A stretch of DNA of 64,000 nucleotides from Neptunomonas concharum (lineage in GTDB: Bacteria; Pseudomonadota; Gammaproteobacteria; Pseudomonadales; Balneatricaceae). The notes below the pieces were generated by a model. The model was given only the letters and a program-made list of their open reading frames with translations, was not told the DNA's origin and searched no databases. Shown here piece after piece: positions 7,843 through 16,173 of this stretch. The stretch lies in the NCBI RefSeq assembly GCF_008630635.1, contig NZ_CP043869.1, positions 1,798,001 to 1,862,000 of the forward strand. Direction: 5' to 3'. Positions within the stretch are counted from its first letter, which is position 1, and every line of letters starts with the position of its first letter. Made by a program: the position numbers and the translations under genes.

Positions 7843-10533
7843 ATGCCGTTATTCGATGCACCACTGACACTCAAGCCGAAGAAACCCAAGCCAATGATAA
7901 AAACGTCTGATTTTTTCCGCCAAATACGTCAAGAATATGATGGTTTTCTGCGGTCACAGCAACAACGCTTCCCTAGTGAAGAAACCCTAAAAATCGACCT
8001 GCATTGTCATGATTACAACAGTGATGTACCCGATGAATTATGGGGACGACTGTTAAACCTCCCCGAAACCTGGCTGCCCACAGAACAGCTCGCACAAACA
8101 CTGAGCAGAAATGGCGCCGACGTTATCACCGTTACCAACCACAATAACGCACGCTCTTGCTGGGCATTAAAGGACAAAGGCGAAGATATATTAGTGGGCA
8201 CAGAGTTTACCTGTCACTTTCCTGACTCCACCCTGAGTATTCATGTATTAACCTACGGCTTTACACCGACGCAGGAACAACAACTCAACACCTTGCGCCA
8301 TGACATCTTCGATTTTGTACGCTTTACCCGCCTGCACAACTTAGTCACAGTATTACCGCACCCGCTGTTTTTCTACACTCACGACCAAAAGCCCGACCTT
8401 AGCATACTGGAAAAATTTGCTGTGCTGTTCCAGCGCTTTGAAGTGTTAAACGGGCAACGGGGCTACTGGCAAAACCTGCTAACGCTGAGATGGGTAGAAA
8501 GCTTAACCCCAGAGCGAATCGATTATTACGCAAAAAAACACCAGCTCGACCCCTTTGAATTTTGTGAGAATCCCTATCAAAAATCGATGACAGGTGGATC
8601 AGATGACCACAACGGTATCTTTGCCGGGCGCACAGGCACACTGGTGCATATCCCTGATCTAGCCAACCGCCTGAAACATACCTCACGTGCAACACTGGTG
8701 CTAGACGCCATCCGCGAAGGCCGCACCACCCCCTATGGCGAGTTAGGAGAAGAAGAAAAACTCACGGTGACCTTTCTCGATTATTTCTCGCAAGTTGCCA
8801 TCCACATGCAAGACCCCGGCTTACTACGCATGATGCTGCACAAAGGCAGCCTACAAGATAAGCTGATGTGTCTTGGCGTAAGCAACGCCATGCAGGAACT
8901 CAAACGTCATAAATATACGCTCACCTTCCTTAAAACCTTCCATGAATCACTCTCTGGCACCAAACCTGCTTTACTGACCAGTTTAGGTGTCAGCAAAGAG
9001 TTTAAACCTGCGCTCAAGGTGATCAAACAGATAGCCAAAACACAACGTAAACACCCTGAACGCTTCTTAGAGACCATTCGCGAGGCGATACCTGAGCTTT
9101 ATCAGGTCGTTACCCACATCTTTTTTGACCGGCTCAATCAACATCTGGAAAAAATGGACAAAGGCCATCTAGCCGAACTCACCACCGATGAACTGGTACG
9201 CCGCTTTGAAATCCCTACCCAATTCCGTGCTCTGTTTAGCGCAGAAAAGAGCGTAGCACCCAAAGATATTACCCAGCTCAACCTATCAAAAATGCTGGAT
9301 GAATTGACGTTTCCTGCACTGGCATCAGGCGTCGTCATGGGAGCCGCCTTTACTGCCAGCCAAGTGATTTATAACAACCGTGAGTTCCTAAACGAACTGG
9401 CCGATACCCTAGGCAAAGCGCAGCACCCGCAAAAAGCCTTATGGCTAACCGATACCTTTGCAGACCACAACGGTGTTTCCTCCGTACTCCAAAGCACCCT
9501 GATAGAGATACAAAACCACGACTACCCCATTGATATACTCACCTGCCACCCCGACCTAGCACCCCAAGATCATCTGGTTGTTGTGCGCCCTGTCTCCAGC
9601 TTTAAAGTCCAAAGCTTAGGCCAGCAAGCCTTTTATATCCCTGATATACTCGAACTACAGCGGATATTTGAACAAGGCGGCTATGACCGTATTATCTGCT
9701 CAACCGAACTACTCATGGGCGCGATAGCCCTCTATCTAAAAAAAGCCTTCTCTGTGCCCGCATACTTCTTTATGCATACCGACTGGATGGAGTTTATCCA
9801 GCGCACCACCCAGTTAAACCACCACGAATCTGATCGCATACGCCGTTTATTACGCGCATTCTACGCCCAATTTGAAGGCATCTTCACCCTGAATAAAGAA
9901 CATCAAGCCTGGCTGACCAGCCCAGAAATGGACCTCCCCGAATCAAACGTAAAACTCACCCAACATTGGGCCGACAACGTATTTACCGAACAAAAACCGG
10001 ATCTACTCACCCTAAACCGCCACCCAATACTGCTCTACGTAGGCCGCTTAAGCGAAGAAAAAGGCGTATACGACTTAATCGATGTATACCAAACCGTTAA
10101 GCGGAACAACCCACAAGCAGAACTCTGGTTTGCAGGCACCGGCCCCGCCGAAGTACAGCTAAAAGCTCAACTACCCGACGCTCAATTTTTAGGCTGGGTC
10201 GACAAAAAAGACCTACCCGCACTCTATCAAAAAACCGACCTGCTCTTGCTACCCTCACGCTTTGATACCTTTGGCTGTGTCGTACTCGAAGCGCTAAGCT
10301 GCGGCCTGCCAGTCGTTGCTTACAACTGCAAAGGCCCTAAAGACATCATCGAGCATAACGTTAGCGGCTATCTGGTAGACAATAGCGAAGCGATGGCCAG
10401 CACCATCAACCAGCATCTACAAAACACAGACAAGCACCAATCGATGAGACAAGCCGCCTACGGCCAAAGCCAAACCTACAGCAGCGAACGCATCATGCAC
10501 ACCCTTATGGCCGATATGAAGCTGACAATATGA
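7843..10533 (+). CDS. PHP-domain / GT4 glycosyltransferase fusion
   Basis: An 896-residue two-part protein. The N-terminal part (about 50-300) is a PHP-type metal-dependent phosphoesterase domain: DLHCHD (His54, His56), TVTNHNN, GTEFTCH, LPHPLFF and GGSDDHNG supply the expected His/Asp/Glu metal ligands. The C-terminal part (about 540-896) is a group-1 glycosyltransferase: LYVGRLSEEKG near residue 727 and an E-x7-E-like stretch FGCVVLEALSCGLPVVAY near 810 fit a GT-B nucleotide-sugar enzyme. The middle is helical and unrecognised. Neither signal peptide nor membrane helix is evident. The start is uncertain: ATG at 7843 has AGG almost touching it, and an in-frame ATG at 7894 is possible. Acceptor and role are unknown, perhaps glycolipid or surface glycan. 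Confidence 0.85.
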   Translation: MPLFDAPLTLKPKKPKPMIKTSDFFRQIRQEYDGFLRSQQQRFPSEETLKIDLHCHDYNSDVPDELWGRLLNLPETWLPTEQLAQTLSRNGADVITVTNHNNARSCWALKDKGEDILVGTEFTCHFPDSTLSIHVLTYGFTPTQEQQLNTLRHDIFDFVRFTRLHNLVTVLPHPLFFYTHDQKPDLSILEKFAVLFQRFEVLNGQRGYWQNLLTLRWVESLTPERIDYYAKKHQLDPFEFCENPYQKSMTGGSDDHNGIFAGRTGTLVHIPDLANRLKHTSRATLVLDAIREGRTTPYGELGEEEKLTVTFLDYFSQVAIHMQDPGLLRMMLHKGSLQDKLMCLGVSNAMQELKRHKYTLTFLKTFHESLSGTKPALLTSLGVSKEFKPALKVIKQIAKTQRKHPERFLETIREAIPELYQVVTHIFFDRLNQHLEKMDKGHLAELTTDELVRRFEIPTQFRALFSAEKSVAPKDITQLNLSKMLDELTFPALASGVVMGAAFTASQVIYNNREFLNELADTLGKAQHPQKALWLTDTFADHNGVSSVLQSTLIEIQNHDYPIDILTCHPDLAPQDHLVVVRPVSSFKVQSLGQQAFYIPDILELQRIFEQGGYDRIICSTELLMGAIALYLKKAFSVPAYFFMHTDWMEFIQRTTQLNHHESDRIRRLLRAFYAQFEGIFTLNKEHQAWLTSPEMDLPESNVKLTQHWADNVFTEQKPDLLTLNRHPILLYVGRLSEEKGVYDLIDVYQTVKRNNPQAELWFAGTGPAEVQLKAQLPDAQFLGWVDKKDLPALYQKTDLLLLPSRFDTFGCVVLEALSCGLPVVAYNCKGPKDIIEHNVSGYLVDNSEAMASTINQHLQNTDKHQSMRQAAYGQSQTYSSERIMHTLMADMKLTI

Positions 10534-10671
10534 TTGCCACCTTTTAGTAGAAGGCGGCTTGCAAACACGCCAGAAGTGGGTTAAATCAGTTAGTTAGAAT
10601 CATGAATGACAGGCCTATAGACGCCAGTAGATTGGATTCGCATATAGGGTTGTTATGTTTTGGGTAAGTGA

Positions 10672-11520
10672 ATGAGAAAATTCAAATGTTATTGGTTATT
10701 GAACTCTGTCCAATCTACTATCAAAGACGAGCATATTTGTGGTTACCATGTGTGCGATAGTTCACAGATTGTAAACGAGAGAAGCTCACTAGGGGCTGAT
10801 GGAAGACGATTCTTTGACGTGTTGCAACAATCTACTGGGCTTTACAATCATTCGTTATGGGTATTTAGGGACGATGAATTTCAAAGCCAGGAAGAAGCAA
10901 ATTCATTTAGTGATATATTCAGGGTCGTTGCTGAATCGTACTACAATTTTGGGGCGTCATCCTCAGGATTAATAATTGTAGATTCGAACTCAAATGAGAT
11001 TATTACAATACAACCTCCTCAAGTAGAAGCTTACCAATCAATAAAACTCGATACTGTTAACGAAGATGATCTGACACGAATTTTCAAGTTGTCAGAAAAG
11101 TTACGCTCGATCAACAGAGAAAAGACTAACTGTTTTTTTTCAATTCTTGACTACCTAAGAGATATCAGAGCATCTCCCTCATTTGTTGGTGAATTAGCAT
11201 TATGGTCGTTTGTAGAACATTATTGGGCTCAAAACCGAAGCGGGAATACCGATATCTATAAAAGTCTAAAGTCGCTCTTAGAAGAAGTTTATATAGATAA
11301 GCAGGATAGGAAAGATTTTAACTTACTTGTAAGAAGTGTAGGACACGATTTGGGAAAATCATATAATGAACATATCCTCCGAAATATACTAGCTCATGGA
11401 AAGCATATGACATTGAAAGAAAACTGGACTGAAAATAACTGGAATAACTTCAACAAGGTTCATGAGCAATTGCTTTCAATAGTGCTAATTGGTATCGAAA
11501 AGAGAATATACGCAGCATGA
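10672..11520 (+). CDS. Unknown protein with HEPN-type R-x4-H motif
   Basis: No family recognised over the full 282 residues. The A+T-rich codon use differs from flanking core genes. The C-terminal third is helical and contains ILRNILAHGK (Arg237, His242), the R-x4-H signature of HEPN RNase/Abi domains, preceded by helices (FFSILDYLRDI, GELALWSFVEHYW) of the kind seen in ApeA-like HEPN proteins. The N-terminal half looks alpha/beta and may be a sensor. There is no operon partner. Function as a ribonuclease or abortive-infection factor is inference from one motif. Confidence 0.6.
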   Translation: MRKFKCYWLLNSVQSTIKDEHICGYHVCDSSQIVNERSSLGADGRRFFDVLQQSTGLYNHSLWVFRDDEFQSQEEANSFSDIFRVVAESYYNFGASSSGLIIVDSNSNEIITIQPPQVEAYQSIKLDTVNEDDLTRIFKLSEKLRSINREKTNCFFSILDYLRDIRASPSFVGELALWSFVEHYWAQNRSGNTDIYKSLKSLLEEVYIDKQDRKDFNLLVRSVGHDLGKSYNEHILRNILAHGKHMTLKENWTENNWNNFNKVHEQLLSIVLIGIEKRIYAA

Positions 11521-12274
11521 GTACCAATTTAATCGAATCGTAGAGTTTCTGAACGATATTAGACTGTTCAAGCCAAAGCAAAACCATGGTGAAATCTAAC
11601 TTAGCCATTGAGGGCTATTTATGTTTTTTTAAGATTGGGGCTTGGCGAAATATTTGGTATAGCTATACAAGAGTTATATAATCTCTATCACAGATATCAT
11701 TATTTTCCCCAAAAGAATCAGTATGAGGTAATGACTTGCTTGTCAACCTACCAGATCGATAGGCGCTATCATCTGAAATTGCAGCATAAATGCCTGATGT
11801 AGCGTCGATTACTGGAGTTCGTGGCTTTGTTACATAACCAAGACGAAGGTCACAACGGTAACCACTAGACTTACTAACGAGAGCAATAGGTCTTGGCCTT
11901 TGTAGCCACGATCAGTTAAACTTCAGCAAAAGGACTTTACTCTACAGGATGCAACGGATGGCACACCTCAAACACTATTACAACCACCAACAAACTCAAA
12001 TAATCCCTCTACCTCTTTCAAATAAGGCATCAATAACCTTACCGCAAAAAAGGAGTACCGCTCGCCTAACGGATAACTCATATGTAAGGGTTAACTATCT
12101 ATAATCACGTAGGTGAGAGCATCCATGGAAAAATATAAATACATGATATAACCGCAACAAATTTATTAGTTTAATTTTTATATTTACCCTTAAAGAATTA
12201 AATGGACGCTGCGATTATAGCTCGCATAAGCATAAAGCATTACACAAGTTATAAATCAATACAGGAAGTAAAAC
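11521..12274 (+). other. 754-base intergenic A+T-rich stretch
   Basis: No convincing gene. A 64-codon plus-strand frame at 11608-11802 has no Shine-Dalgarno site and low-complexity composition. On the minus strand a stop-free stretch of about 83 codons (11663-11911) has protein-like composition but no usable start codon, so it may be a decayed gene or chance. The last 120 bases before 12275 are very A+T rich and likely contain the promoter of the carbonic anhydrase gene. Confidence 0.5.
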
Positions 12275-13135
12275 ATGAATTCAAGAATTCTTTTTATTTT
12301 AACCGTAGCGGCATGTACGCCACTCAGTATAGCCGCCAAAGAAGCCCATTCTGAAGCTCCCGTTTTGGTAGCTGATAGCATCATAGCTCAGCAGCGCCAA
12401 GCACTGGCGGAAGCCACCAAGGGAAAAGGTTTTGGGCCCCAATCACCACGGGATATCAATCAGGTTAGCGGTACAAATGCGCGGTCTTTTAATCAAGCAC
12501 CGCCTTATACTGAAATGAATTTATGTGATATCCACTTCCATAAAAATGCTGAGCATAAAGGCGGGGAATTCACCCTATATGCGGGAAATGGTGATGGCCA
12601 AGGGTATGGAAGTGGTTATCGATATTCGGGGACGTTGTCAGAGGCTGAGCTGACTCCAACGGATTATGAAATTTGCCCAAGTAAGCATGGTAGCCTGAAG
12701 CCAGGTGATACAATAGAACTTCATTATGTCCACTCATCCACTCAGGCAGTGCCTGGACCAACGCTGGGTACATGCCTAAGTGAGGCAATCGCAAATCCCC
12801 AATTACGCGTAGAGGCTCAGGTCTTTGTCTTGGTAAATGACAGTGACGCTAGTGATTTTTCAGACCTGACAAAACACGGCCTTAAAAACGGATACCACCA
12901 AGCTCTCAATATTCCTTCCGATACTGGGACACCGATACAATACGAGGGATCCACCACCGGTCCTTCTTACAACACGAAAGGCTCACCCTTTCAAGTTAGC
13001 TGGAGTGTTCGTCCCAAAGTAGCTAAGGTGAATGCAGCATCCGTCGGAAAATGGTGCGAAGGTAATGAGTTTAAAGAAGATCACGCACACGGCGTAAGAA
13101 ACCTTGTAGTTAACCCAGATCTTCTATCAAGATAA
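12275..13135 (+). CDS. Delta-class carbonic anhydrase, exported
   Basis: Predicted periplasmic CO2 hydratase. The signal peptide (about 1-21, ending SIAAK) precedes a mature domain with the blocks recalled from bacterial delta-class enzymes: KGFGPQSPRDI, NLCDIHFHKNAEHKGGEF (histidines suited to Zn binding), HYVHSS and NEDHAHGVRNLVVNP near the C-terminus (here KEDHAHGVRN). Paired cysteines (Cys in NLCDI, EICPSK, GTCLSE, KWCEG) suggest disulfides, as expected for an exported protein. Length 286 is as expected. It stands alone, with an AGGAAG site before the ATG. The delta class was first described in diatoms; bacterial members are known but less studied. Confidence 0.87.
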   Translation: MNSRILFILTVAACTPLSIAAKEAHSEAPVLVADSIIAQQRQALAEATKGKGFGPQSPRDINQVSGTNARSFNQAPPYTEMNLCDIHFHKNAEHKGGEFTLYAGNGDGQGYGSGYRYSGTLSEAELTPTDYEICPSKHGSLKPGDTIELHYVHSSTQAVPGPTLGTCLSEAIANPQLRVEAQVFVLVNDSDASDFSDLTKHGLKNGYHQALNIPSDTGTPIQYEGSTTGPSYNTKGSPFQVSWSVRPKVAKVNAASVGKWCEGNEFKEDHAHGVRNLVVNPDLLSR

Positions 13136-13298
13136 TAACTTTATCCTACGGGGTATAACAGATGATACAAACTATCAGCAAGCTAAAACATGCCCTTTGG
13201 GTTAGGCATAAACTAAGAACGAAGAAGAGCTGTATATATGAGGATTTTTATACATTGATACCCAAACTAAAGGTTCATTATAGAAAAAGGAGAATAGC

Positions 13299-14015
13299 TT
13301 GAAAAACTTGCTTCCTATACTATTAGTATTTTTTTCGACTTATGTTGAAGCAAATATCGACTTTAGAAATCCTATTAGGAACTATATAAATATTAAAGAG
13401 TCTTGGAATATATTCTATGAAGAAGACATGCAAAAAACAGACCCTGAACTAACTAAAAACTCATTAATCAAACTACAAGATATACTTAAAAAAGTTGAAA
13501 AAAACCTACCTAAACATTCCATTAAAAAACTTAAAAGATTAAAAATCTTTCTATTATGGGGAGAAAAATCCCCAAAAGGAGGGTTAAATAGTGGGATGAG
13601 ATATGTTAGACAAGGTGAAACGATAACACGGCTACATTATGATGCAAGATGGGAAAATTCTATAGTAATCTATAGTGCTGAAAACTTAATGTATTTAACA
13701 GAAATGTGGGCAAAAAAGGCTATAGTTCATGAACTGGCACATGCGTGGCACATTATGCACTGGCCTGAAAAACATAGAGCTATAGTAACACCTTGGAAAC
13801 ATGCTAAAGAGAAAAATTTATATAGAAATGTAAGAGACTACAAAAATAGAATAAAGCCTGAAGCATATGCGCTTAAGAACAACCTAGAGTACTTTGCCGA
13901 ATTATCAGCGATGTACTTTGTTGGTGGTGATTATTTTCCTTACGAACGAAGAAAATTAACCAAATACGATCCTGAAGGAGTAAAAATGGTTAAGGAACTA
14001 TGGAACGTTAGATAG
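13299..14015 (+). CDS. Exported HExxH zinc metallopeptidase-like protein
   Basis: Family not recognised. A short signal peptide (residues 1-18, VEA cleavage) is followed by a lysine-rich helical region and a gluzincin-like catalytic site: AIVHELAHAWH (HELAH at 144-148) with downstream EYFAELSAMYF, where Glu197 or Glu201 could be the third zinc ligand. This arrangement resembles small secreted zinc peptidases of unknown substrate. The TTG start at 13299 is chosen because AAAGGAGA lies 6-8 bases upstream. Very A+T-rich codon use unlike the neighbours suggests acquisition by transfer. No immunity or partner gene is adjacent. Confidence 0.72.
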   Translation: MKNLLPILLVFFSTYVEANIDFRNPIRNYINIKESWNIFYEEDMQKTDPELTKNSLIKLQDILKKVEKNLPKHSIKKLKRLKIFLLWGEKSPKGGLNSGMRYVRQGETITRLHYDARWENSIVIYSAENLMYLTEMWAKKAIVHELAHAWHIMHWPEKHRAIVTPWKHAKEKNLYRNVRDYKNRIKPEAYALKNNLEYFAELSAMYFVGGDYFPYERRKLTKYDPEGVKMVKELWNVR

Positions 14016-14264
14016 CATAATACAGAGTTCACTAACTGGATTACTAAGAATGTTTCTAGCTGCGTTATTTGATACAGAAAGCCGGTTCTGTTGCACTAGA
14101 TCTTTCCATATTTCCCTCCACTCTGCTAAGCCTAGTGCGTAGTAGAGCGGAGTTTCATCTATTCTTATGCTACTTATTAAATTTCAGTATTGTTTCAACC
14201 AAAATTACCAACAGGATACAAGGCATATATGACTAGTTTATTTTTTAATAATAGGACCTTTACC

Positions 14265-14786
14265 CTACCTCAGTAAACCTAACTTTGATTCCAGCCGAGT
14301 TAACAGCGCAGCGCTATCGATAGCGTCATCATTTAACCCCTCTAGTAGTGTCATAAAATACACATCCATTATTAGATCAGCATATAAGCGCTGCTCTTCG
14401 TTGTTGTTGACTAGGAGTGACTTAAATGCATTGAGTTGTGGATCAAGAGATTGGCTTTGCCATAGCAATGCTTTAAACAGTGCTTTACTAAACTCCCTTT
14501 GGGATAGATAGAATGGGTAGAGCGCATGGGCGTAATGGAGTAGCCGCTCGGTGGGGCTTGTACTTTGATCGGATTGGCTGGCTTGCTGCAGCAACGTAGC
14601 CAGCTTGCCTTCTAAACCGGCTTTAAGAAGATCCAGTTTATTGGGAAAATGACTAAACACCGTACCTGTCGCCACCTGTGCGTGAGCCGCTATATCACGG
14701 GTAGTGGTTTGCTCGTAACCTTTTTCTGTAAATAGCTGCCAAGCAGTACCGAGTATTTTTGCCTTAGTTTGCGCGCGTTTGGTCAC
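14265..14786 (-). CDS. TetR-family transcriptional regulator
   Basis: One-component repressor of 173 residues. The N-terminal helix-turn-helix (about 8-55: AKILGTAWQLFTEKGYEQTTTRDIAAHA, then VATGTVFSHFPNKLDLL) is canonical; the C-terminal ligand domain is unclassified. It starts at GTG with CAGGAG upstream. It is divergent from the DUF2867 gene, and a 12-bp palindrome lies in the shared 129-base region inside that gene's promoter, so local control is likely. The inducer is not predictable. Confidence 0.9.
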   Translation of the reverse strand: MTKRAQTKAKILGTAWQLFTEKGYEQTTTRDIAAHAQVATGTVFSHFPNKLDLLKAGLEGKLATLLQQASQSDQSTSPTERLLHYAHALYPFYLSQREFSKALFKALLWQSQSLDPQLNAFKSLLVNNNEEQRLYADLIMDVYFMTLLEGLNDDAIDSAALLTRLESKLGLLR

Positions 14787-14848
14787 GTTTTTACTCCTGA
14801 ATCACATACACCATTAAATCAATTTTGTTATGGCGTTAAAAGATTAAG

Positions 14849-14877
14849 TTGAAAATTGAGCGCGCTCATTTTATGAT
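14849..14877 (+). promoter_or_regulatory. Sigma-70-like promoter of the DUF2867 gene
   Basis: TTGAAA (14849-14854) and TATGAT (14872-14877) are separated by exactly 17 bases, about 40 bases before the DUF2867 ATG. The palindrome TGAGCGCGCTCA fills the spacer. Confidence 0.65.
14857..14868. promoter_or_regulatory. Palindromic operator candidate for the TetR regulator
   Basis: TGAGCGCGCTCA is a perfect 12-bp palindrome with A/T-rich flanks, centred between the -35 and -10 elements in the tetR/DUF2867 divergent region. Location and symmetry are those expected for a TetR dimer blocking RNA polymerase. Confidence 0.65.
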
Positions 14878-14915
14878 GCGATTCCCTAATACAACACTAC
14901 CTCAGGAGAGCTAAA

Positions 14916-15413
14916 ATGGTATCGGAAATGGTGTTCCCGCCAGAAACCAAAATTAATGGCAAAGAGTCAGCATCCCATTATCGAGACGCCTTTAGGGTAA
15001 TAGTTAATAAACCAGAGCTCGAAGCAAGAGAGGTTTATCACAGCATCTTTGGCTTTTTACCAAAGCCCGTACAGCTCGCCTTAGCGTTGCGCAACGCGAT
15101 TGTTAAGCATTTGGGTTTTGCGGTAAGTAATACTGAAATGAGCCTCCCGCTCGAAGAGATAGCCATAGGGAAAAAAGCCGGATTTCTTACGATAGAGCAC
15201 GTCGACCCATCAGAAATTGTGTGTAGTGCGTATGAGCCTAATATGGATATGTGGCTATCCGTTTTAAAACTATCAGATCAAGAGTTTGCGGTTTCGACGT
15301 TAGTTAATTTAAAAACAAAAACGGGTAAGGTCTATATGACCATTATCAAGCCATTTCATAAGTTGATTGCTAAATACTGTATTAAACAAGCACTTAAAGC
15401 GGGCCGCATATAA
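14916..15413 (+). CDS. DUF2867-family protein
   Basis: A 165-residue protein recognised as DUF2867-like from its overall pattern (a DAFRV opening, FG(F)LPKPVQLALALRNAIVKHLG, and a C-terminal VYMTIIKPFHKLI block). Function is unknown; no signal peptide is seen. CAGGAG lies seven bases before the ATG. It is expressed from the promoter carrying the TetR-type palindrome and is divergent from that regulator, so it is probably induced by the regulator's ligand. It converges on the end of the cobalamin operon. Confidence 0.75.
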   Translation: MVSEMVFPPETKINGKESASHYRDAFRVIVNKPELEAREVYHSIFGFLPKPVQLALALRNAIVKHLGFAVSNTEMSLPLEEIAIGKKAGFLTIEHVDPSEIVCSAYEPNMDMWLSVLKLSDQEFAVSTLVNLKTKTGKVYMTIIKPFHKLIAKYCIKQALKAGRI

Positions 15414-15429
15414 CGGGTAGATCAATCAT

Positions 15430-16173
15430 TTACACGCTAAACGCCGCTACGGTTATCACCGTTAGTTCAACCATCGCAATCAGTGCGCCTGCTGTGTCGC
15501 CTGTTGTGCCTCCTAAGCGGGTAAGCATCGCTCGTCGCGCAAGATAGACAACTAACAGAACAGCCAAGATAATGAATGGCGCGAGTACCACACTTATAAT
15601 GCATACCCCCACTACCAGCCACTGTAGAGGTTTAATAGGCATATGGGAGATCATATGAGCAACGATGCCTTTGTCCCTCACGTAAGGGGTTGTAGCTAAT
15701 AAGCCAATGGCAGCGGTCCTTGCCAATGCGGGAGCAATCATCAGAGGGAGGAGTAGTTGATGATCGACCACCACGATGAGCGCAGCCCCCATCAAAAATA
15801 GGTATAAGATCAGCACAATAGCGCCTGTCGCACCAATGCAGGGGTCTTTCATAATACGTAAGCTTTTGGCTCGATCCCCTAAACCGCCCATCAAACCATC
15901 GCTACTATCTGCCAAACCGTCGAGGTGTAGCCCTCCTGTAATCACTACCCAGATAACCAACAGCATCGCTGCCATAAGCGGTGCCGAGGATATTAGATTC
16001 AACTGTAATAACAGCGCCAAACCAGCGCCCATACATAACCCAACCAATGGATAAAAGAGTAACGAGGCCGCTTGCACGTATTGGCTGGGATAGCGCTTAA
16101 AACGCACAGGAAGAATAGTAAGGAACTGTACCGCCACCAAAAACGCTTGTAGCGTTTGGCTGATTCTATTCAT
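15430..16173 (-). CDS. cobS: Adenosylcobinamide-GDP ribazoletransferase
   Basis: Inner-membrane cobalamin synthase joining adenosylcobinamide-GDP with alpha-ribazole (phosphate). The family motif GGLHLDGLADSSDGLMGG (about residues 80-97) supplies the acidic Mg-binding residues, and several hydrophobic helices surround it. Length 247 is normal. It is the last gene of the B12 operon, overlapping the phosphatase gene by eight bases. Confidence 0.95.
   Translation of the reverse strand: MNRISQTLQAFLVAVQFLTILPVRFKRYPSQYVQAASLLFYPLVGLCMGAGLALLLQLNLISSAPLMAAMLLVIWVVITGGLHLDGLADSSDGLMGGLGDRAKSLRIMKDPCIGATGAIVLILYLFLMGAALIVVVDHQLLLPLMIAPALARTAAIGLLATTPYVRDKGIVAHMISHMPIKPLQWLVVGVCIISVVLAPFIILAVLLVVYLARRAMLTRLGGTTGDTAGALIAMVELTVITVAAFSV

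Follow-up and report, generated by a model that had tools for sequence, protein, structure and literature searches.

Location and composition of the orphan gene

The window analyzed here comprises 64,000 nucleotides of Neptunomonas concharum (contig NZ_CP043869.1, positions 1,798,001 to 1,862,000), and within it a single open reading frame, whose bounds are exactly those originally predicted, encodes an orphan protein of 282 amino acids (Table 1). The description of this gene as A+T-rich and foreign-looking in codon use was confirmed: its GC content is 0.362, its GC3 is 0.336 as compared with a mean of 0.454 (SD 0.037) for a hand-picked set of 27 other window ORFs, and its codon-adaptation score lies 1.94 SD under the mean of the same set. 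The motif that had drawn attention to the protein, ILRNILAHGK with its R-x4-H signature, is likewise present. R237 and H242 lie in the string HILRNILAHGKH, and R237-N-I-L-A-H242, with a G following H242, is the sole R-x4-6-H in the protein. The hairpin listed in Table 1, which is a consensus match only, begins 82 nt past the stop codon.

Table 1. Coordinates, within the window, of the orphan gene and associated features.
Feature	Coordinates	Strand	Basis
Orphan gene, 282-aa protein with HEPN-like motif	10672..11520	+	one ORF, exact bounds
N-terminal part (about residues 1-115), proposed sensor	10672..11016	+	alpha/beta in low-confidence model
C-terminal part (about residues 131-282), proposed HEPN-like RNase domain	11062..11517	+	all-helical in low-confidence models
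Codon for E182 (invariant), candidate for the acidic residue of helix 2	11215..11217	+	three-member alignment
R237-N-I-L-A-H242, R-x4-H motif	11380..11397	+	invariant in 3/3 members
Terminator-like hairpin and T-rich tail, 3' of the orphan gene	11602..11617	+	consensus match only
4.9-kb stretch between glycosyltransferase gene and cobS	10534..15429	.	the two genes adjacent in four congeners

The gene lies at the left end of the 4.9-kb stretch, which is bounded by an upstream glycosyltransferase gene ending at 10533 and by cobS (15430-16173, - strand) and which also carries a delta carbonic anhydrase-like gene together with genes for an HExxH protein, a TetR regulator and a DUF2867 protein. The glycosyltransferase end was compared in five congeners. 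In four of these (L040, L041, L042 and L044), a cobS match begins 9-15 nt past the glycosyltransferase match, and the 3.7-kb stretch from the fifth (L043) yielded no cobS; in two other congeners, the glycosyltransferase matches were partial and weak only. No homologue of the orphan gene was found in any of the seven other congeners searched. Because the two flanking genes are adjacent in four congeners and 4.9 kb apart here, the simplest reading of the comparison is that the stretch was inserted between them.

Several features of the stretch deserve a separate record. The delta carbonic anhydrase-like gene (12275-13135, + strand; PF10563, E 2e-81) has a 63% identical copy elsewhere in congener G004. 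A very A+T-rich 238-aa ORF at 13299-14015 (+ strand; GC 0.32) carries a metallopeptidase-like HELAH (HExxH) signature, and its Pfam matches all fall under the curated cut-offs. An 8-bp direct repeat, CGCATATA, is found near both ends of the stretch (10639-10646 and 15405-15412); about 0.1 such repeats would be expected by chance by our own estimate, and it could be a target-site duplication or a chance occurrence.

As the original prediction had it, no antitoxin gene is visible alongside the gene. The 754 nt that separate it from the next recognisable gene, the delta carbonic anhydrase-like gene starting at 12275, hold only a 64-aa TTG-start ORF at 11608 with a single Pfam match (E 0.17, far below the cut-off). 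A nucleotidyltransferase (MNT) gene was not found beside the orphan gene, whose neighbours are the glycosyltransferase gene, the 64-aa ORF and the carbonic anhydrase-like gene, and an Rfam search of window positions 10000-15000 gave no match at E up to 1.

Because the genome holds integron integrase remains, we also scanned for attC-like sites. The first remnant (L016; G000:C1:1556492-1557432, - strand) consists of two pieces, one above the curated cut-off (314 vs 265 bits), and the second (L018; G000:C1:1884630-1885090, + strand) of two pieces under it (147.8 bits), a level at which 14 of 14 control genomes also match. A simple home-made scan flagged no attC-like site in window positions 10000-14600, one in L017 and two in L018, and an integron cassette was not taken as the main reading of the gene. 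The two sites on the second remnant's stretch (L018:4851-4922 and 8885-8983) have a YjbR ORF and an IS110 transposase nearby. The same stretch contains a 269-aa ORF (L018:6061-6867, - strand) carrying R-SNMGDV-H (R-x6-H) close to its C-terminus and having neither a notable Pfam match nor a PADLOC match, possibly another HEPN/Abi-type protein. An integron-cassette HEPN protein has been described (PDB 3jrt; PMC3710099, in the portion available), and the present case resembles it as a possible HEPN protein in mobile DNA of a gammaproteobacterium with integrase remains; it differs in that the scan flagged no attC-like site alongside the orphan gene and that 3jrt was not matched in the PDB sequence search.

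A rare family with three known members

The family to which the protein belongs has three known members, the orphan protein included. The second, encoded by the Neptuniibacter halophilus plasmid pLMG25378 (NZ_AP027293.1), is 36.7% identical to the query across 98% of the query length, and the third lies on an Alteromonadaceae MAG contig (JABSOJ010000393.1), where it is split over two frames as sequenced. The C-terminal halves of the two relatives are 48% and 59% identical to that of the orphan protein and their N-terminal halves 27% and 36%. In scans that rely on short exact peptide matches, which distant relatives can escape, one record of the plasmid collection matched (the N. halophilus plasmid), and the genome contig collection yielded one locus with a two-row alignment as query and none with the single protein; the phage collection and, in five scans, the viral-contig collection gave none. 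A blastn search of plasmids with 10534-12270 gave no match. A literature search likewise found no mention of the N. halophilus relative's protein accession or locus tag or of the MAG contig accession.

Searches of whole genomes gave the same picture of rarity. Two of 193 relatives' genomes matched, and two of 116 at the family level, the own genome being counted each time and the other being the plasmid-bearing N. halophilus genome. Wider draws, which overlap and hence are not independent genome sets, matched 3 of 390 genomes at the order level (the own genome and two weak, partial matches), 2 of 369 at the class level (one weak; the C-terminal profile matched 1 of 369) and 4 of 398 at the phylum level (three weak), so that the sole convincing match in all three was the own genome. 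The weak partial matches (E 0.003-0.01; G141 and G398 at the order, G805 at the class, and G912, G1067 and G856 at the phylum level) were rejected, and inspection of the ORFs at weak-match loci L005, L048 and L049 showed none that resembles a relative.

A blastn comparison of the flanks of the three copies gave matches confined to the gene itself, and no neighbour common to the three loci was found, although the MAG contig offers little to compare, ending as it does 180 nt past the gene; its nearest long upstream ORF lies on the opposite strand and is amino-acid permease-like by eye. About 4 kb from the N. halophilus copy, and separated from it by an EAL gene and an ORF of 524 aa, is a five-gene operon (L006:2005-7936) that adjoins a WYL regulator; one of its products is an MksE protein (PF21980, E 3e-26) and another resembles JetC weakly (E 9.3e-5). 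These matches suggest that the operon may be a condensin-type (Wadjet-like) defence operon. The lack of a neighbour common to the three loci favours a stand-alone gene, in line with the earlier description of a single, orphan gene without a visible partner. Since the stretch is absent from four congeners, the gene is atypical in composition and one relative is plasmid-borne, the best reading of these comparisons is that the gene was horizontally acquired and is probably mobile.

The plasmid-borne copy also has a same-strand ORF of 148 aa located 95 nt downstream, which bears on the idea that the protein is a HEPN-like RNase without an anti-phage role, i.e., a stress or growth-control toxin, or one member of a toxin-antitoxin pair in which the antitoxin is supplied by an RNA or a distant gene or has been lost. 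HEPN domains do occur in toxin-antitoxin pairs and stress responses (PMC3710099, available portion). However, the 148-aa ORF has no Pfam match, nothing comparable was seen next to the other two copies, and the extra N-terminal half of the orphan protein is more easily understood as a built-in regulator than as part of a plain toxin. The same half, together with the absence of a nucleotidyltransferase gene alongside, sets the protein apart from HEPN/MNT (HepT/MntA) toxin-antitoxin systems, which it resembles in having an R-x4-6-H type motif. We therefore regard a toxin as improbable.

Conservation of the motif

In its bare form, the motif on which the original prediction was built proves nothing by itself, because R-x4-H is common by chance: it occurred in 41% of shuffles of the orphan protein, and 15 of the 27 other window ORFs contain it as well. 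R-[NDH]-x3-H occurred in 8% of the shuffles and in 6 of the 27 ORFs. The narrower pattern R-[ND]-x2-[AVIMLTSC]-H-G, composed after the query was seen, occurred in 0.16% of the shuffles and in only 1 of 121 six-frame ORFs of at least 100 aa from four stretches of the own genome (37,478 residues), namely the orphan gene; RNGVAHG is also found in an apparently unrelated protein at L048, among the weak genome matches.

Judged from the alignment of the three sequences, the real support for the motif is its conservation among the family members. R237, H242 and N238, the polar residue directly after R237, are invariant in all three, so that the finding named beforehand as fatal to the proposal, an Arg/His pair that varies among homologues, did not appear. 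These residues lie in LRNILAHGKH, itself invariant in 3/3 members; at 10 residues, it exceeds every other invariant run among the gap-free C-terminal columns, and 0.9% of column shuffles produced a run of at least 10. E182, located 55 residues ahead of R237, is also invariant in the three members and falls in a block (161-185) in which 19 of 25 columns are invariant.

These positions can be set against the published description of HEPN domains, in which the R-x4-6-H motif stands at the end of helix 3 of a four-helix bundle, the residue directly after R is polar (mostly N, D or H), helix 2 carries an acidic residue (typically Ex3[KR]), and inserts, some of them helical, are frequent between helices 2 and 3 (PMC3710099, available portion). 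The residue at E182+4 is A, R and A in the three members, so that Ex3[KR] is found in one of three, helix 2 being taken here from a low-confidence model.

Profile and structure comparisons

The profile search that had been proposed against HEPN and ApeA families did not bear out the assignment. Searches of Pfam (HEPN_Apea, PF18739, included), PADLOC and NCBIfam with the orphan protein returned no match at E <= 10, and PHROG gave five weak matches (E 0.029 or worse). A HEPN_Apea search of 75 genomes matched nowhere, controls included, so the sensitivity of this model is unchecked. Among PDB sequences, the single protein gave one match (E 0.35), and the four profile matches, all to yeast Rrp6 (E 0.03 to 0.9) and with the Arg placed on a gap, were taken as chance.

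We then compared the family with DUF4145, represented by an alignment of 28 sequences from 30 loci, with L077 (a weak own-genome match) and L066 (no open frame at the expected place) left out. The family C-terminal alignment scored 14.0 by hhalign in an 11-column match over the motif, whereas column shuffles, a control made for the orphan family only, gave a median of 10.9 and a best score of 18.55 (n=60), and the reversed alignment gave 9.9. The full-length alignment scored 16.7 with the motif outside the match. Tha-1, a proven single-gene HEPN RNase of 301 aa with the motif R265NSIMH270 (RNSIMHG; PMC11087260, available portion), scored 31.95 alone with its motif aligned. DUF4145 was accordingly rejected as the parent family, the score of 14.0 lying within the shuffles while Tha-1 reaches 31.95, and at the sequence level the family is not detectably HEPN by this comparison. 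The miss is weak evidence, because the query profile held three sequences (Neff 1.6) and was compared with one HEPN family. The Pfam miss is also weak evidence, because Tha-1 itself scores below the Pfam cut-offs (DUF4145 E 0.025, HepT-like E 0.029). Direct comparison with Tha-1, using the sequence from phage 80alpha that was picked by its 301-aa length and R265NSIMH270 string, remained at noise: hhalign gave 15.9 with the motifs not aligned, and pairwise scores against the C-terminal part of Tha-1 lay within shuffles for two of three members, the third reaching z 3.9 with the motifs unaligned.

The structure prediction that had also been proposed gave models of low confidence. A full-length AlphaFold model, built from three rows (the orphan protein and two MAG-copy pieces, with the Neptuniibacter sequence left out), reached a pLDDT of 54.7 and a pTM of 0.51, and the C-terminal part alone reached a pLDDT of 49.4. 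At this low confidence, the models suggest an alpha/beta N-terminal half, an all-helical C-terminal half and a motif at a helix end. The modelled C-terminal helices (pLDDT 54.7) span 131-146, 149-167, 173-184 (with E182), 193-206, 210-226, 233-241 and 254-281; R237 falls in helix 233-241 and H242 just past it, followed by a loop and the long last helix 254-281. The order of helices agrees with the published HEPN description, at confidence values (54.7 and 49.4) too low for this agreement to count as a test, and with both models so uncertain, a HEPN bundle cannot be told from another fold by them. Fold searches gave no usable match. Foldseek gave 0 of 75 matches against the PDB and 0 of 184 against a viral library at E <= 0.001, and the best VIA-align scores (Z 4.3 and 4.1) were among unrelated folds, with none at Z >= 5. 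Three HEPN entries stood low in the two VIA-align lists and were given no weight: 8pcw_B (Csm6'; Z 3.2, rmsd 3.6, 85 aligned), 8xdj_B (Z 2.8, rmsd 4.0, 71 aligned) and 8xeh_D (Z 2.4, rmsd 4.2, 68 aligned).

A different reading is that the C-terminal half is some other helical domain, in which RN-x2-A-HG is kept for structure or for binding a metal or a ligand, and that the protein has another role, for example in signalling or nucleotide metabolism. No profile library recognises the protein, the DUF4145 and Tha-1 comparisons are at noise whereas that of Tha-1 with DUF4145 is not, the models and fold searches are uninformative, and RNGVAHG also occurs in the apparently unrelated L048 protein. 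Against this, no invariant stretch is longer than the motif run, an N follows R and an invariant E stands 55 residues upstream as in Tha-1, and the helix order predicted by the low-confidence model matches the published HEPN description (PMC3710099, available portion). A non-HEPN domain is the less likely reading.

Discussion

Altogether, HEPN superfamily membership of the orphan protein is plausible, and its C-terminal half is probably HEPN-like. The points in favour of this reading are the R-N-x3-H residues that are invariant in 3/3 members inside the longest invariant run, the invariant E182 at a Tha-1-like spacing, and a modelled helix order as published; it is weakened by the lack of a profile match, by DUF4145 and Tha-1 comparisons at noise, by low-confidence models, by an Ex3[KR] in one of three members and by the occurrence of the fuller motif in the apparently unrelated L048 protein. 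With other HEPN proteins (Abi, ApeA, DUF4145, HepT; PMC3710099, available portion), the orphan protein shares the conserved R-x4-H, the N after R, the upstream invariant E, a probably helical context and a domain ahead of it at the N-terminus, as in AbiJ- and ApeA-type fusions, but unlike them it has no Pfam, NCBIfam or PADLOC match and its HEPN fold is not demonstrated. Of the original suggestion of a HEPN RNase with an N-terminal sensor, the conserved C-terminal R/N/H motif and the distinct N-terminal part are supported.

The closest known counterparts are Tha-1 and Tha-2, single-gene HEPN anti-phage RNases of staphylococcal prophages, of which Tha-1 is activated by a phage tail protein (PMC11087260, available portion). 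Tha-1 and the orphan protein are similar in size (301 and 282 aa), are stand-alone effectors, and have an unrecognised N-terminal part and a C-terminal half with R-N-x3-H-G near its end. E212 of Tha-1 lies 53 residues before R265, as E182 lies 55 residues before R237, and the alignment of Tha with DUF4145 suggests that E212 may be the equivalent of E182. The differences are that no sequence similarity that aligns the motifs was found, that HEPN profile similarity is seen in Tha-1 but not in the orphan family, and that Tha alone has a proven trigger and proven RNase activity.

We propose, at a probability of roughly 0.5, that the gene is a horizontally acquired single-gene effector of two domains, an N-terminal sensor and a divergent HEPN-like RNase, that arrests growth upon infection. 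The organization would be Tha-like, with the sensor preceding the RNase effector. The C-terminal half (about residues 131-282) would be a divergent, metal-independent RNase domain of the HEPN type, whose active site, formed by R237 and H242 together with N238 and probably E182, would lie at the cleft of a homodimer. The alpha/beta N-terminal half (about residues 1-115) would keep the RNase inactive until a trigger is sensed, most plausibly a phage component or an infection signal, whereupon cellular and phage RNA would be cut and growth would stop, as in abortive infection. We infer the HEPN fold, the RNase activity, the dimer, the role of the sensor, the trigger and the benefit, and the anti-phage role with them. 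That no relative turned up in the phage and viral-contig collections weighs against this explanation. A more specific proposal, that these proteins constitute the first family of a new single-gene defence system, i.e., a very rare plasmid- and island-borne HEPN RNase with a new N-terminal sensor that parallels Tha and arose independently, appears rather doubtful.

If the proposal is true, it would bring a new family, with perhaps a new trigger, and not a new principle, because Tha and other HEPN systems made of a single gene have been described before. It would add to the HEPN-like proteins a tiny family that Pfam, NCBIfam, PADLOC and PHROG do not recognise, together with a new N-terminal part as a candidate phage sensor, and it would mean that such effectors occur as very rare single genes that are missed by neighbourhood-based searches.
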